A stretch of DNA of 36,153 nt from Anaerolineae bacterium CG2_30_57_67 (GTDB taxonomy: Bacteria; Chloroflexota; Anaerolineae; Anaerolineales; Villigracilaceae): positions 1 through 36,153 of the forward strand of contig MNXJ01000024.1 in NCBI GenBank assembly GCA_001872455.1. The letters run 5' to 3'. Each line of letters starts with the position of its first letter. The first letter of the stretch is position 1. Positions 1 to 34,800 of the stretch are shown piece by piece. The notes below the pieces were generated by a model, which saw nothing but the letters and a program-made list of their open reading frames with translations, searched no databases and was not told where the DNA came from. The translations under genes were made by a program, and so were the position numbers.

Positions 1-318
1 TCCACGCAAAGCGCAGATTTGCGCCACAGTTGGCTGCCCATTTTGCCAATTTTTTGGACGGGTTCTTATCTGTTCAGTGCCTATCAAACGGCTCTAAAAT
101 TTCAGTTTTCCGGTTTCTGCGGCGCAACCGCGACATATATATCGCGCCACTGGTTCTTGCTGCGTAACATCAGTTAAATGATTTGCCGGTGGAAAGTGCA
201 ATAATGAGCCGTAACTTATTTATTTTTAAGACGACATTAAGTTAGATACCGGCCGAATTGATCAGGCCGATTTGCATTCCAGGAACATCGCAAGTGCCGC
301 ACGCCAACCGGAGGAATC
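1..318. other. Upstream region of the multiheme cytochrome gene
   Basis: No convincing coding region is seen here. An inverted repeat lies at 121-148 (GGCGC and CGCGA arms answered by TCGCG and GCGCC around an AT-rich core of alternating CATATATA). A second short one at about 250-270 has arms CGGCC and GGCCG. Either could be an operator or leader hairpin of the downstream cytochrome gene. I could not pick a clean -35/-10 pair. The ribosome binding site GGAGG is at about 310-314, just before the ATG at 319. Confidence 0.4.
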
Positions 319-3090
319 ATGAAACAAAATCGTTTGGGTTGTTTAACCCCCATGGCCATGATCGCCACTGTCATCACCCTGCTCGCTATCGGCGGCATGG
401 CGTTTGTTAATGGCAGCGACTTCTTCAGCGCCGGGAGTTTGAACGCGCAAGGCAGCGGTGGCACACTGGGGGGCGTCCGTTCACATGCAGAAATTGGCGA
501 TGATTGCGCCAAGTGTCACCCGGCGTTGTGGGAACCCGATACGATGGGGGATCGCTGTGTCGTCTGCCACAAGGATGTTCTCGTCCAGCTGGCTTTTCCC
601 AACAGCCTGCACGGCGCCATTCGCAGTGAAGTTTCTAAAATCAATTGCCGCTCGTGCCATTCTGAACACAAAGGCCCCGATGCGCCGCTGACCGATGCGC
701 ATCTAACCAATTTTCCGCACGACCCGATGGGATTTTCGCTGACTTCACACAAGAAACGCGCCGATGGCGTGCTCTTTGCTTGCGCCGATTGCCATGTGAA
801 CAGTTTTATTGATTTTCAACAGACGCAATGCGCCGCCTGCCATCGTCAGATGGACGCGGTATTTACCACTGCTCACGCCATTGAGTTTGGCGAAAATTGC
901 ATGGCCTGCCACGACGGCGTGGAAACCATTGGCAAGGCTTTCGATCACAGCAAATCTACTTTTGCGCTGGCTGGCAAACATCTGGACGTGCGCTGCGCTG
1001 AATGTCACACCAACGCCCGCAGCCGCGCCGATTTAAAAACCGCCCCGACCGCCTGCGAAAGTTGCCACCAGAAAGATGACGCCCATCAGGGACGTTATGG
1101 TCTGACCTGTGGCAATTGTCACAACCCGGCGGGTTGGCGCGATAATCTCAAGTTTGATCATAATCTTTCCACCTTCAAACTGGAAGGAAAGCATATCGGT
1201 GTGGCCTGCGAAAAATGCCATACCAACCCCGCTCAATTTGCTGGGATCGCGTCTGATTGTGTTTCCTGTCATTCCAAGGATGACGCCCATAACGGACAAT
1301 TTGGGACGACTTGCGCCATTTGCCATAACGTTTCGGATTGGAAAGATGTTCACATTGACCACAGTCTGTTTTCTTTCAAACTGGATGGCACACACGTCAA
1401 TGTTCCCTGTCTTTCCTGCCACGTCAACAACGTTCTAAAGGGTACGCCCACGCAGTGTAACGCTTGCCATGCCCAGGATGATGCCCATCATGGACAGTTT
1501 GGCACAGATTGCGCCAAATGCCACAGCACTGCCGCCTGGAAGCCATCCACGTTTGACCACAACCTGGCCGCTTTCAAACTCGATGGCGCACACGTCAACG
1601 TTGCCTGTCTTTCCTGCCACAAAAACGGCCAGTTCAAAGGCACACCACAAAACTGCTTTGGCTGTCACGCTGGCAATGATGCCCACCATGGACAATTTGG
1701 TACGGACTGCGCCAAGTGTCATACCACTGCCGCCTGGAAGCCCGCCTTTTTCAATCACAACCTGTCGGTCTTCAAACTAACCGGCGCGCATGTCAATGTT
1801 GCCTGCCTTTCCTGCCACAAAAACGGCGTCTTCAAAGGTACACCGCAAAACTGCGTTGGCTGTCACGCCAGCAATGACGCTCACCATGGACAATTTGGCA
1901 CGGACTGCGCCAAGTGTCACACCACTGCTGCCTGGAAGCCCGCCTTTTTTGACCATAACCTGTCGGCTTTCAAACTAACCGGCGCGCACGTCAACGTCTC
2001 GTGTCTTTCCTGCCACAAAAATGGACAGTTCAAAGGCACACCGCAAGATTGCTTCAGCTGTCACGCCGGCAACGACGCCCACCACGGACAATTTGGGACG
2101 GCTTGCGCGCAGTGCCACAATACCGCCGCCTGGAAACCCGCCTCCTTCGACCATAATCTGTCATCCTTCAAATTGACGGGGGCGCACGGTGGTGTTGCCT
2201 GCCTGTCCTGTCACCAAAACGGTAAGTTCAAAGGTACGCCCAGCGATTGTTACAGCTGTCATGCAGGTAAAGATGCTCACCACGGTCAGTTTGGTACCAA
2301 TTGCGCCCAGTGCCACAGCACCAGCGCCTGGAAACCTGCCACTTTTGACCATAACCTGTCTTCCTTCAAGCTAACTGGTGCACACACGAATGTTTCTTGT
2401 AATACCTGCCATTCAAACGGCGTTTTCAAAGGTACACCTTCGCAGTGCGGTGTCTGTCACGCGGCAGATGACGCCCACGGTGGCCGTTTCGGCGCCTTCT
2501 GCGGGCAATGCCATACCACCTCTGGCTGGAAACCCGCTACCTTTGACCATAACCTGGCTTCCTTCAAACTGACCGGCGCGCACGCCGGTGCGGCTTGCTC
2601 CTCCTGCCATAAAAACGGTCAGTTCAAAGGCACGCCCTCTGACTGTTACAGCTGTCATGGCGGTCAGGACGCGCACAACGGAAAATTTGGCGCCAACTGC
2701 TCACAGTGCCATAGCACCAGCGCCTGGAAACCCGCCTCGTTCAACCATAACTTATCTGGCTTCCCATTGGCCGGGCGACACGCCAACGTGGCTTGTTCCT
2801 CCTGTCACCCTGGCGGTCGCTACGCTGGCACGCCATCCGCTTGCGCGGCCTGCCACGGCGAACCCGCTTTCCATTCGGGCATGTTCAGCAGTAATTGCGA
2901 CCAGTGCCACAGCGCTAATAACTGGAATGGTTCCTACAACGGTTCACATCCCAGTATATCCAACGACGAGGGCGGCTCTGGCGTCAATCACGGCGGGCAG
3001 GGCTGTCGTTCCTGTCACACCAGCAGTCTGCATGATGCCACTTGTACTGCTTGTCATGACGGCAATGGTGATGACGGCGGGGATGATTAG
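319..3090 (+). CDS. Giant multiheme c-type cytochrome with 38 CXXCH motifs
   Basis: The 923-residue product has one N-terminal hydrophobic segment (about residues 12-30, following MKQNR), which is either an uncleaved anchor or a Sec signal, so the protein should lie outside the cytoplasmic membrane. I count 38 CXXCH haem-binding motifs, about one per 24 residues: six in the N-terminal part, thirty in ten tandem three-haem units, and two near the C-terminus. Each unit also carries the histidines of DHNL, GAH and DAHHG, enough to supply distal ligands for bis-His haems. The tail is acidic and glycine-rich. Such proteins usually act as electron conduits between membrane dehydrogenases or quinol oxidases and external acceptors; the partner is not visible here. 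The start is fixed by GGAGG five bases upstream. It appears monocistronic, ended by a strong hairpin. The family is clear; the exact electron acceptor is unknown. Confidence 0.93.
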   Translation: MKQNRLGCLTPMAMIATVITLLAIGGMAFVNGSDFFSAGSLNAQGSGGTLGGVRSHAEIGDDCAKCHPALWEPDTMGDRCVVCHKDVLVQLAFPNSLHGAIRSEVSKINCRSCHSEHKGPDAPLTDAHLTNFPHDPMGFSLTSHKKRADGVLFACADCHVNSFIDFQQTQCAACHRQMDAVFTTAHAIEFGENCMACHDGVETIGKAFDHSKSTFALAGKHLDVRCAECHTNARSRADLKTAPTACESCHQKDDAHQGRYGLTCGNCHNPAGWRDNLKFDHNLSTFKLEGKHIGVACEKCHTNPAQFAGIASDCVSCHSKDDAHNGQFGTTCAICHNVSDWKDVHIDHSLFSFKLDGTHVNVPCLSCHVNNVLKGTPTQCNACHAQDDAHHGQFGTDCAKCHSTAAWKPSTFDHNLAAFKLDGAHVNVACLSCHKNGQFKGTPQNCFGCHAGNDAHHGQFGTDCAKCHTTAAWKPAFFNHNLSVFKLTGAHVNVACLSCHKNGVFKGTPQNCVGCHASNDAHHGQFGTDCAKCHTTAAWKPAFFDHNLSAFKLTGAHVNVSCLSCHKNGQFKGTPQDCFSCHAGNDAHHGQFGTACAQCHNTAAWKPASFDHNLSSFKLTGAHGGVACLSCHQNGKFKGTPSDCYSCHAGKDAHHGQFGTNCAQCHSTSAWKPATFDHNLSSFKLTGAHTNVSCNTCHSNGVFKGTPSQCGVCHAADDAHGGRFGAFCGQCHTTSGWKPATFDHNLASFKLTGAHAGAACSSCHKNGQFKGTPSDCYSCHGGQDAHNGKFGANCSQCHSTSAWKPASFNHNLSGFPLAGRHANVACSSCHPGGRYAGTPSACAACHGEPAFHSGMFSSNCDQCHSANNWNGSYNGSHPSISNDEGGSGVNHGGQGCRSCHTSSLHDATCTACHDGNGDDGGDD
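940..2934 (+). repeat. Ten tandem three-haem units inside the cytochrome gene
   Basis: Unit starts (the F/I-D-H or F-N-H codon) fall at 940, 1153, 1354, 1552, 1750, 1948, 2146, 2344, 2542 and 2740. From 1354 onward the spacing is exactly 198 bp (66 residues); the first two are 213 and 201 bp. Each unit reads roughly DHNL, FKLTGAH, CLSCH, FKGTP, CxxCH, DAHHGQFGT, CAxCH, AAWKP. Units starting at 1552, 1750 and 1948 are very alike at DNA level, suggesting recent duplication, while the outer units have diverged. Confidence 0.92.
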
Positions 3091-12569: not shown

Positions 12570-13868
12570 TTACACCAACAGCCTGACCGGATTTTCCAAA
12601 AACCCCGCCAGCGCCTGCAGAAATTGTGCGGCCTCGGCGCCGTCGCTGATGCGATGGTCAACAGAGATGGTGGCTTTCATGCGCCAGCCGGGGACAATCT
12701 GTCCGCCAGAGACGACCGGCACTTCTCGCGCCGAGCCAATCGCCAAAATGGCCGCTTCGGGCGGGTTGATGATGGCGATGAAATCTTCGACATCGTACAT
12801 TCCCAGGTTGGAGGTGGAAAAGGTCGAGCCGTCCACATCTTCGGGTTTGACTTTGCCTGACCGCGCGCGCGCCGCCATGGCTTTGACTTCACCTGAAATC
12901 TGGCGCAAAGTCTTCCGATCGGTGTCTTTGACGACGACCGTCATCAACCCGCCGGGGACGGTGACGGCCACACCGACATTGACCTGCCCGAATTGAATCA
13001 CTTCGGCGCCCTTGAGCATCGCATTTAAATTAGGAAATTGACGCAACGCCAAAGCCACACCTTTGAGAACAAAGTCATTGACTGACAGTTTTTCACCATC
13101 AGGCAAAACCGCGTTGACTTGCTTGCGCATGTCCATCAACGCATCCATCTTGTACTCGTGTGTGACGTAGAAGTGCGGGATGGTGGTCTTGGATTCGACC
13201 AGGCGGCGGCCAATGGCCTGGCGGAGTTTGGTGGTGGGGATGGATTCATCCGCAAGCGTTGTTGGTTGGAGGTTGGCGGTTGGCAGTGTTTCAGGCTGAC
13301 TGCTGGCAACCGGCAACTGGCTGCCTTTCAGGATTGCTTCGATGTCCCGCCGCACAATCCGCCCGCCGGGGCCGGTGCCAACGACCGAGCCGAGGTCCAC
13401 GCCCCGCTCGCGGGCAACTTTTTTCGCCAGCGGAGAGGCCTTCGTCAATGCAGAAGCAGATTCAGTTGGACGGTTATTCGGTTGGACGGTTGGACGGTTA
13501 TCCGGTTGGACGGTTGAACGGTTGTCCGGTTGGGCGGTTGTCCGGTTGTCCGGTTGGGCGGTTGTCGTATCCGCTGACGACTGATTACTGGCCACTGGTA
13601 ACTGATCACTGGCCACTGGCAACTGTTCCCCTTCCACGCCCACCACCGCAATCGGCGTGTTGACCGGCACGCTCGTACCGGCATCCACCAGCTGTTGCAA
13701 CACCACGCCGCTGAAAGATGATTCGACTTCAACGGTGGCCTTGTCGGTTTCAATTTCGGCCAGCACCTCGCCTTTATTGATTGTCTCGCCGACGTTTTTC
13801 ACCCAGCGGACGAGCGTTCCCTCGGCCATGTCGAAGCCGAGTTTGGGCATGTTGATGATTTCGGCCAT
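12570..13868 (-). CDS. pdhC: Dihydrolipoamide acetyltransferase, E2 of the pyruvate dehydrogenase complex
   Basis: This 432-residue subunit transfers the acetyl group from lipoate to CoA. Residues 1-80 are a single lipoyl domain with the lipoylation motif ETDKATVE (lysine at about 43). Residues about 140-178 are the E3/E1-binding domain (ASPLAKKVARERGVDL to GGRIVRRDIEAIL). From about 205 the catalytic domain follows, with the active-site motif DHRISDG (His at about 405). The two linkers are unusual: they are translated from 7-bp and 8-bp tandem repeats, giving QLPVASD/QLPVASN and four near-copies of xQPDNRxT. The start ATG overlaps the E1 beta stop by one base (TAATG). Other members of this acyltransferase family act on 2-oxoglutarate or branched-chain oxoacids, but the E1 genes favour pyruvate. 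Confidence 0.88.
   Translation of the reverse strand: MAEIINMPKLGFDMAEGTLVRWVKNVGETINKGEVLAEIETDKATVEVESSFSGVVLQQLVDAGTSVPVNTPIAVVGVEGEQLPVASDQLPVASNQSSADTTTAQPDNRTTAQPDNRSTVQPDNRPTVQPNNRPTESASALTKASPLAKKVARERGVDLGSVVGTGPGGRIVRRDIEAILKGSQLPVASSQPETLPTANLQPTTLADESIPTTKLRQAIGRRLVESKTTIPHFYVTHEYKMDALMDMRKQVNAVLPDGEKLSVNDFVLKGVALALRQFPNLNAMLKGAEVIQFGQVNVGVAVTVPGGLMTVVVKDTDRKTLRQISGEVKAMAARARSGKVKPEDVDGSTFSTSNLGMYDVEDFIAIINPPEAAILAIGSAREVPVVSGGQIVPGWRMKATISVDHRISDGAEAAQFLQALAGFLENPVRLLV
13258..13316. repeat. Heptamer repeats coding for the second E2 linker
   Basis: On the plus strand GTTGTTG, GTTGGAG, GTTGGCG, GTTGGCA run in phase from 13258 to 13285. A second group of heptamers at about 13294-13316 reads on the minus strand as CAGTTGC, CGGTTGC, CAGCAGT. 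They encode the Q/S/P/T-rich linker between the E3-binding and catalytic domains of E2 (SQLPVASSQ and TANLQPTT). Confidence 0.65.
13461..13564. repeat. Thirteen 8-bp tandem repeats inside E2
   Basis: Thirteen consecutive 8-mers of the form NNCGGTTG (plus strand; CAACCGNN on the coding strand) run without interruption, with the first base variant (TTCAGTTG) at 13461-13468. Three units equal 24 bp or eight codons, so the protein shows an 8-residue period built on QPDNR. Confidence 0.9.
13580..13625. repeat. Heptamer tandem repeat inside E2
   Basis: ACTGATT, ACTGGCC, ACTGGTA, ACTGATC, ACTGGCC, ACTGGCA and a partial ACTG follow one another from 13580. Three 7-mers equal seven codons, which gives the QLPVASD then QLPVASN duplication in the first E2 linker. 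The core ACTG/CAGT is shared with the array at 14851-14920. Confidence 0.85.
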
Positions 13869-20586: not shown

Positions 20587-20998
20587 GCCTCAGGTCGGTC
20601 GGGCGGTCGCGGCCTTGCTTTGCAGGGCCGAGGAAAGTCCGCACTCCGTAGAGCGCGGCGTCGGGTAACACCCGGGGCGGAGAAGCCATCTTCGGATGGC
20701 GAATCTGCCGGATAGGGCCACAGAAACAAACAGCCCCGCATCTCAACCTTTTCCCTGGGGAGAGTTTGAGATGCGGGGTGATGGTGAAAAGGTGGTGTAA
20801 GAGACCACCGGCGCGCGCAGTAATGCGCGCGGCCAGGTAACCCCCGCCGGGAGCAAGGTCAAATAGGAGCGAGAGACGGCTCGTCTCGTTTGAGCTCCGG
20901 GTAGACTGCTAGAGCGACGCGGTAACGTGCCGCCGAGAAAGATGACCGTCCATCCCCCTCGGGGAGGACAGAACGCGGCTTACAGACCGGCCTGAGGC
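20587..20998 (+). ncRNA. rnpB: RNase P RNA, bacterial class A
   Basis: This is the catalytic RNA that matures tRNA 5' ends. Helix P1 pairs GCCTCAGG at 20587 with CCTGAGGC ending at 20998. Universal blocks are present in order: GAGGAAAGTCCG (about 20629), GGTAACCCCCGCCGGGAGCAAGG (about 20837-20860, in two conserved pieces), AGAAAGATGACCGTC (about 20937-20950) and GGACAGAACGCGGCTTACAG (about 20965-20985). Length about 412 nt suits class A. A TATCAT -10 box (20575-20580) sits six bases upstream of the predicted 5' end; the -35 is weak. Confidence 0.95.
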
Positions 20999-34596: not shown

Positions 34597-34681
34597 GGAG
34601 GGATGACCGAGCGGCTGAAGGTAACGGTCTTGAAAACCGTCGTGGTGAAAGCCACCGTGGGTTCGAATCCCACTCCCTCCG
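34597..34681 (+). tRNA. tRNA-Ser, anticodon TGA
   Basis: The 7-bp acceptor stem GGAGGGA/TCCCTCC (34597-34603 and 34674-34680) and the D-arm (ACCGAGCGGCTGAAGG) are in place. Anticodon loop CTTGAAA gives TGA. A long variable arm (GTGGTGAAAGCCAC) marks a class II tRNA, and the T-loop is GGTTCGAATCC. The discriminator is G; CCA is not encoded. Confidence 0.95.
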
Positions 34682-34706: not shown

Positions 34707-34800
34707 GGGGAGGTGCCAGAGTGGCTGAATGGGCTCGCCTGCTAAGTGAGTGTCGGGGCTTAAACCTCGACCGCGGGTTCAAATCCCGCCCTCCCCGCCA
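34707..34800 (+). tRNA. tRNA-Ser, anticodon GCT
   Basis: The acceptor stem is GGGGAGG/CCTCCCC (34707-34713 and 34790-34796) and the anticodon loop CTGCTAA gives GCT. A long variable arm (TGTCGGGGCTTAAACCTCGAC, split here only by its loop) and T-loop GGTTCAAATCC follow. Discriminator G at 34797 is followed by an encoded CCA (34798-34800), unlike the neighbouring tRNA-Ser. It lies 25 bases after the first tRNA and is probably on the same transcript. Confidence 0.94.

Follow-up and report, generated by a model that had tools for sequence, protein, structure and literature searches.

A 38-haem cytochrome built from a repeated three-haem module and a probable porin-less, PCC3-like electron-transfer system in Chloroflexota

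The window analysed here is the whole of contig MNXJ01000024.1 of Anaerolineae bacterium CG2_30_57_67 (36,153 nucleotides; contig C71 of a 3.0 Mb genome in 87 contigs, 98% completeness), and near its start lies a gene for a 923-residue c-type cytochrome with 38 haem-binding motifs. Our main conclusion, to which we give a probability of roughly 0.7, is that this gene encodes the membrane-anchored multihaem cytochrome of a porin-less electron-transfer system of Chloroflexota that resembles PCC3, described by He et al. in 2017 (PMC5566968). The likeness consists of N-terminal homology that goes beyond the haem motifs, of haem numbers that step by three, and of a membrane protein, usual beside the relatives of the gene, with two WX3HX13H motifs and an SGXXG motif. 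The gene and its upstream flank are laid out as follows.

1..177, no strand assigned: high-copy interspersed repeat at the contig start, outside the gene (45 matches of 1-318 in its own genome)
310..314, plus strand: GGAGG, probable ribosome binding site ahead of the ATG at 319, recognised by eye
319..3090, plus strand: 38-haem c-type cytochrome, 923 residues (open reading frame with ATG start, motif count, Pfam)
349..408, plus strand: N-terminal hydrophobic helix (residues 11-30), probable signal anchor (hydropathy; a helix in a low-confidence model)
505..912, plus strand: N-terminal block of six irregularly spaced haem motifs, conserved in the family and homologous by sequence to PCC3-type periplasmic cytochromes
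958..1371, plus strand: units 1 and 2 (71 and 67 residues), which in the 20-haem proteins of the same genus resemble units 1 and 2 most
1372..2757, plus strand: units 3-9, a run of seven modules of 198 bp and three haems, all with the single unit 3 of those proteins as their best match
2758..2955, plus strand: unit 10, a diverged terminal module; the eight modules of other proteins nearest to it are terminal without exception
2956..3090, plus strand: C-terminal cap holding the final two haem motifs, spaced by 13 residues, and a Gly/Asp tail (the 'type A' ending)

All 38 motifs are of the CXXCH kind, with no CX3CH and no CX4CH, and they contain 76 of the 77 cysteines in the protein, which has about 24 residues per haem (923/38). 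An earlier sequence-only reading of this DNA had given the coordinates and the count correctly. Motifs 7-36 (30 of the 38) fall into ten three-haem units starting at residues 226, 297, 364, 430 and onwards to 826, at intervals of 71, 67 and then seven times exactly 66 residues (198 bp), as that reading had described, and Tandem Repeats Finder reports a period of 198 at 1355-2385 and 1492-2751. Its phrase 'very similar central copies' fits units 4-6 (83-90% amino acid and 80-86% DNA identity), but across units 3-9 the amino acid identity is moderate overall, at 56-90%, and unit 10 shares just 37-46% with units 3-9. Pfam Cytochrome_C7 (PF14522) matches 15 stretches of the protein with an E value of 3.8e-45 and 152 bits against a curated cut-off of 24.8.

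The best 19-residue hydropathy stretch begins at residue 12 with a mean of 2.26, and past residue 40 no segment exceeds 1.2, in agreement with the earlier reading of the N-terminal helix as a sign of export or anchoring. Residues 5-10 of the protein read RLGCLT, of which G7 and C8 are invariant across the 15 rows of alignment A1, and of 92 family members 78 have a Gly-Cys (or Gly-Ser) pair within the first 90 residues, usually ahead of the helix. The Cys of RLGCLT sits too early for a lipobox.

The search for relatives yielded at least 593 stretches, 403 of them confirmed, and the best 80 were kept as 78 loci. Among the matches listed, the closest named relatives come from Chloroflexota assemblies, mostly labelled Anaerolineales, Anaerolineae or merely Chloroflexi, and the next from Nitrospira and then several Proteobacteria (Rubrivivax, Aquabacterium, Azonexus and others); in the set of the window's own genome and 60 relatives a match was present in 31 of 61. 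Haem counts were taken from 119 complete proteins with at least eight motifs, drawn from 142 loci with exact duplicates removed and near-identical strains kept. By motif spacing, 92 of these proteins are of a Chloroflexota type, 16 of a PCC3-periplasmic type, 10 of a loose extracellular class (including L110 and L056, which lack its spacing) and 1 of another kind.

Chloroflexota-type endings were assigned from spacing and tail pattern with the haem count left unused. Type A, the window's kind, has its last two motifs 13-14 apart, and type B has one motif more and a ...CHPTGRE-like tail. Type A proteins carry 14-47 haems, a number equal to 2 modulo 3 in 42 of 42, and type B proteins 12-105 haems, 0 modulo 3 in 42 of 44 (the exceptions being L112 with 26 and L080 with 17); the PCC3-periplasmic type has 24-39 haems, 0 modulo 3 in 16 of 16. 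Six Chloroflexota-type endings were left unassigned (14, 15, 30, 30, 30 and 33 haems), one of which, L026, resembles type B by spacing. Since haem numbers are all but constant modulo 3 for each ending, length appears to change almost solely by whole three-haem modules, and on this sequence evidence the family is length-variable with its haem number stepping by three. The sequence-only reading had left room for a standard described family of fixed length; what we find is a family that varies in length.

Two species of the window's genus (G002 and G003) possess 20-haem type-A proteins with end spacings as in the window, and the difference between 38 and 20 haems, 18, equals six modules. Window unit 1 pairs best with unit 1 of these congeners (53-54% identity) and unit 2 with unit 2 (59-60%), units 3-9 all pair with congener unit 3 (54-62%), and unit 10 pairs with unit 4 (57-59%). 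A 20-haem protein from another genus of the same family (L015) gives the same best pairing, with units 1 and 8 less clear-cut; its margins are 46 versus 45 and 44 for window unit 1 and 52 versus 50 for unit 2.

The nearest neighbour of each module was then counted among 278 modules of canonical 16/18 spacing only (199 internal) from 92 proteins, excluding other proteins with N-terminal identity of at least 75%. The nearest module lay in the same protein for 50 of 64 modules in proteins with at least six internal modules (chance 0.038) and, more weakly, for 76 of 167 in proteins with at least two (chance 0.021), while a terminal module was the nearest for 48 of 54 terminal modules and for 5 of 199 internal ones. 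In the window, with the 75% exclusion lifted, six of the seven internal modules are nearest to a module of their own protein and unit 8 to a module of L069; the terminal unit is nearest to terminal modules elsewhere. The pairing of terminal with terminal modules, together with same-protein neighbours for internal ones, argues that growth was internal, between fixed ends, and to judge from these comparisons the long form looks like a 20-haem-like form of the same genus in which one module has become seven. Growth by amplification of a three-haem module, proposed from the window's letters, therefore finds support both in relatives whose counts step in threes and in the single congener unit that matches seven window units. 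A recent amplification was rejected, as adjacent units 3-9 show many synonymous differences (15-27 codons).

The genes that accompany these cytochromes are best seen on another contig of the same genome, C40, where genes in one direction encode a flavin adenine dinucleotide (FAD)/NAD(P) oxidoreductase (PF07992), a 187-residue membrane protein that is cytochrome b561-like but under the Pfam cut-off, and an 18-haem type-B relative. Right after this last, intact gene comes a type-A copy with its frame lost (L007, G000:C40, 1-1378, minus strand), which ends in DNA recurring elsewhere in the genome. The membrane protein is encoded directly upstream of the cytochrome in 59 of 68 Chloroflexota-type loci with at least 700 bp of upstream sequence (of 74 loci), and both it and the FAD protein are upstream in 31 of 37 loci with at least 2500 bp. 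Two WX3HX13H motifs plus SGXXG are present in 78 of 79 distinct open reading frames for the membrane protein, Chloroflexota and PCC3-type pooled, the one miss being cut at a locus end. Class-wide, the membrane protein was matched at E 1e-20 or better in 32 of 298 genomes, the window's own included. In genome G022 the cluster of FAD protein, membrane protein and cytochrome occurs twice in mirror image, with equal lengths and scores and about 6 kb apart (L049, 5338-14535), which could be either a true inverted duplication or an assembly fault.

He et al. give the same two WX3HX13H motifs and SGXXG as the signature of PCC3/PCC4 inner-membrane proteins, which are read there as probably two-haem, b-type and quinone-active (PMC5566968). 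The cytochromes were compared by a shuffle test with residues 46-360 of the window's protein as the query, the motif Cys and His being fixed and the rest shuffled. PCC3-periplasmic-type proteins from Aquabacterium, Burkholderiales and Nitrospira gave z values of 21.7, 18.8 and 17.5, a congener protein 34.8 and one PCC3-type extracellular cytochrome 2.1; loci are called PCC3-type here by gene content and membrane-protein signature, the published PCC3 sequences themselves standing outside the comparison. By this measure the N-terminal part of the protein and the PCC3-type periplasmic cytochrome are homologous. A PCC3 extracellular cytochrome as the parent was rejected at z 2.1 (one such protein tested), and no cytochrome with PCC3-extracellular spacing was classed in Chloroflexota-type loci, where the loose class caught only L110 (872-3379, 30 motifs) and L056 (6170-7852, 17 motifs). 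These two have a spacing of 16-17-24-17, stand in loci that also carry Chloroflexota-type cytochromes, and possibly form a separate repeat family.

The Chloroflexota loci differ from PCC3-type loci in gene content. A homologous membrane protein is present in 14 of the 16 Proteobacterial and Nitrospira loci, the two Nitrospira lacking one, and none of the 16 has the FAD protein, whereas the Chloroflexota loci have the FAD oxidoreductase as an addition. Conversely, the query that detects a PCC3 porin candidate in 8 of 16 PCC3-type loci detected it in none of 40 Chloroflexota-type loci, each at least 7 kb long, and the candidate was also not found in the window or the C40 stretches; Pfam gives weak tetratricopeptide repeat (TPR) matches only for this candidate, and its barrel nature is read from its place and look. 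The Chloroflexota type also ranges over 12-105 haems against 24-39 in the PCC3-type set, and the periplasmic location of the PCC3 cytochrome cannot apply here if the cell has one membrane.

Our searches for Omp85 returned no match in the window's own genome, compared with matches in 7 of 14 control genomes, and the cytochrome c assembly family PF01578 has two matches in this genome. The lack of a porin candidate and of Omp85, together with a sole strong hydrophobic stretch at the N terminus, fits a one-membrane cell with an anchored cytochrome, so that a single-membrane envelope with the protein held by its N-terminal helix is supported by the predicted gene content. In alignment A2 (three modules, 53 rows) each module has an invariant Trp and three non-motif His, all invariant save one that is nearly so in the first module; three such His per three haems would be enough for bis-histidine ligation of all three.

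From these elements we would draw the following path. The N-terminal helix would anchor the cytochrome to the cytoplasmic membrane, leaving the haem chain on the outer side, and the haems are presumably bis-histidine ligated. Electrons would pass from NAD(P)H or quinol to the FAD protein and/or the b-haem membrane protein and into the N-terminal block, and from there through the modules to an outside partner (mineral, electrode or other cell), or in reverse, and every further module would make the chain three haems longer. A tunable wire on the cell surface is thus a plausible description, with conduction and exposure being inferred. To our knowledge, outward electron movement by single-membrane bacteria is poorly known beyond a few Firmicutes. 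If the reading is true, part of the Chloroflexota has a defined chain of FAD protein, b-type membrane protein and extendable haem wire, with a core in common with the PCC3 complex that was put forward for iron oxidisers, and the natural length series, built on a single 66-residue block, would offer ready material for relating wire length to electron transfer.

Several observations weigh against this system as we propose it. The window holds neither the membrane-protein gene nor the FAD partner gene, its contig beginning 318 bp upstream of the cytochrome, and the one membrane-protein match of the genome is on C40, beside the 18-haem cytochrome. Evidence for a join between C40 and C71 was sought and none found, and we do not place the 38-haem gene after the C40 cluster. 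In four congeners the DNA surrounding the fumarase gene (about 19.5-20 kb in each) contains no multihaem gene, so that the 38-haem gene is away from the place usual in its family; it has possibly been moved by recombination, given the adjoining high-copy repeat at 1-177. In 9 of the 68 loci the membrane protein is not directly upstream, including those of the three largest proteins (75-105 haems); the other six are L069, L045, L032, L056, L050 and L040, and in several of the misses the cytochrome gene comes second in a pair, or another part of the locus holds the membrane protein. A moderate z value is not specific, as L110, a 30-haem Chloroflexota protein with another spacing, reaches 6.4 in the shuffle test, and the margins of the unit pairing are small in places, for example against the congener protein L013, where window unit 6 is 57% identical to unit 3 and 56% to unit 2. 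Structure prediction, which the sequence-only reading had put forward as a check, leaves the haem chain invisible: the AlphaFold2 model of the full protein, made from 15 sequences, has a mean predicted local distance difference test score (pLDDT) of 45.4 and a predicted template modelling score (pTM) of 0.23, too poor for a chain.

The three largest proteins are L077 (954-8414, 105 CXXCH motifs), L070 (5962-11715, 81 motifs) and L073 (757-6141, 75 motifs). They are made of two kinds of block, with spacings of 37-17-23-32-20-18 and 32-16-18, and their longest exact internal repeats are 46-74 bp. The usual membrane protein was not found in the stretches around them, which for two of the three include just 0.8-1 kb upstream.

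The path could also run inwards, with electrons from Fe(II), a cathode or partner cells reaching the b-type membrane protein and then the FAD protein or quinones. The original proposal of PCC3 came from work on iron oxidisers (PMC5566968), and the Chloroflexota isolate Ardenticatena maritima gives both anodic and cathodic current (PMC5808234), yet the 20 open reading frames of the window that were scanned, up to 26410, hold no pointer to lithotrophy, and we regard inward flow as a possible but doubtful direction.

A further question is what the number of modules means. It may have no function past a minimum and simply drift by unequal recombination, as the span from 12 to 105 haems across the Chloroflexota-type set, and from 20 to 38 for type A within one genus, would allow. 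Against such drift, spacing and non-motif His are kept in the aligned copies and nearly all changes are of whole modules; these features speak for selection on each module, and not for selection on module number, and we consider a neutral array somewhat unlikely. An adaptive account can be offered with no greater assurance. He et al. report medians of 21 haems for PCC3 periplasmic cytochromes and 34, up to 85, for extracellular ones (PMC5566968), and the Gallionellaceae PCC3 periplasmic cytochrome has 21, 24 or 27 (PMC10734462). The PCC3-type proteins that we examined have 24 or 27 haems in 27 of 29 cases, the other two having 33 and 39. The haem-count spread of the 16 PCC3-type and 92 Chloroflexota-type proteins did not differ significantly (Brown-Forsythe test on log counts, p 0.078), and gave p 0.002 once 13 more PCC3-type proteins, all with 24 haems and all drawn from a single family-level sample (200 genomes, 13 of them matching), were added; as the sequences are related these values are not true probabilities, and the groups are unequal in taxonomic breadth. 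L166/L174 (one protein split into 9- and 15-haem open reading frames), L154 (27 haems, the same as L114) and repeat views were dropped from the enlarged set. Although speculative, it is attractive to think that a diderm PCC3-type wire must fit the periplasm and so has a nearly fixed length, while the single-membrane Chloroflexota kept the same wire and its entry, went without the porin, gained the FAD protein and left the array free to vary (12-105 haems), module number then being an evolutionary dial for reach.

Alternatively, the array might mainly store electrons when no acceptor is at hand, its length setting capacity and not reach. Storage besides conduction has been proposed for such cytochromes (PMC10734462; PMC7399161), and the residues per haem given above fall inside the 22-39 range reported for PCC3 cytochromes (PMC5566968). 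Position-specific terminal modules and the N-terminal block are better explained by a chain with two defined ends, which makes a mainly capacitive array improbable, although a capacitor and a wire are compatible and not mutually exclusive.

Finally, it is very unlikely that the repeat number is inflated or that two strains are mixed in the assembly, for although the gene is near a contig edge, next to a high-copy repeat, and the assembly has 87 contigs, no two units are the same, no 25-mer occurs twice in the gene (the longest internal exact repeat being about 20 bp) and relatives have arrays of like size (type A with 29, 35, 41, 41 and 47 haems). The copies are therefore distinguishable in assembly, and a repeat-assembly fault in the 38-haem gene is unlikely on these sequence grounds. 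The 45 matches of window 1-318 include its own place (109 candidates, 40 scored); that place aside, nearly all lie inside positions 1-179 of the query, and many, very often, at contig ends. The repeat of about 177 bp thus probably breaks the assembly and is the reason for the missing sequence upstream of the cytochrome gene. An inverted repeat was sought in window 1-318 and none was found.

The kind of protein is already known from variable Anaerolineales cytochromes, from PCC3 and from Geobacter proteins of three-haem domains. Arbour et al. (2020) described large Anaerolineales cytochromes whose haem number varies between close relatives, with motifs gained or lost in pairs or multiples, and noted that Anaerolineales are without porin complexes, giving a single-membrane cell as the reason (PMC7399161). 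Those proteins are apparently from the same order and likewise vary in haem number, a likeness by description and not by sequence; the text on them describes no module, names no partner genes and draws no link to PCC3. GSU1996 (12 haems in four domains) and GSU2210 (27 haems) of Geobacter sulfurreducens, the 'nanowires of hemes' (PMC10138318), are likewise single polypeptides of repeated three-haem domains, but they are periplasmic in a diderm, and domains C and D of GSU1996 have axial Met (PMC10138318), whereas window units 3-9 contain no Met.

Against solved structures, a single-sequence search gave only nitrite reductase (E 0.011), and profile searches gave weak multihaem matches, the best at 5e-07 (6qvm) and 3.5e-07 (1gws); kinship to these two is not claimed, as CXXCH spacing alone may cause such matches. 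The three-module profile reached the GSU1996 structure 3OV0 at a non-significant E of 0.079, and of OmcS, OmcE and OmcZ, whose separate subunits polymerise head to tail into filaments, no chain was named in the list of 15 sequences that this profile search of solved structures gave with E no higher than 0.1. The Pfam match to PF14522 does not define the Chloroflexota family, as that profile is broad and picks up PCC3-type cytochromes of both kinds.

Our searches of open-licence PubMed Central did not turn up the arithmetic of the modules, the match of one unit to seven, a porin-less PCC3-like cluster partnered by an FAD protein, or a member with 105 haems; the arithmetic, the match and the link to PCC3 are added here. 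Among the papers listed in those searches none names this Chloroflexota cluster PCC3-like in its title or the start of its abstract, preprints and most subscription journals lying outside that collection. The sequence-only reading knew of no named cytochrome with this exact module, but the family is partly described (PMC7399161) and resembles PCC3.

Elsewhere in the window, 13 of the 20 scanned open reading frames have Pfam matches to ordinary enzymes and housekeeping proteins and 7 have no match. Short tandem repeats at 13465-13564 (24 bp x 4.2) and 13580-13625 (21 bp x 2.2) lie inside the gene for the E2 component of a 2-oxoacid dehydrogenase, on the minus strand, between its lipoyl and E3-binding domains. 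Rfam places three RNA genes further along the contig.

20591-20998: RNase P RNA (class A)
34597-34681: tRNA gene
34707-34797: tRNA gene

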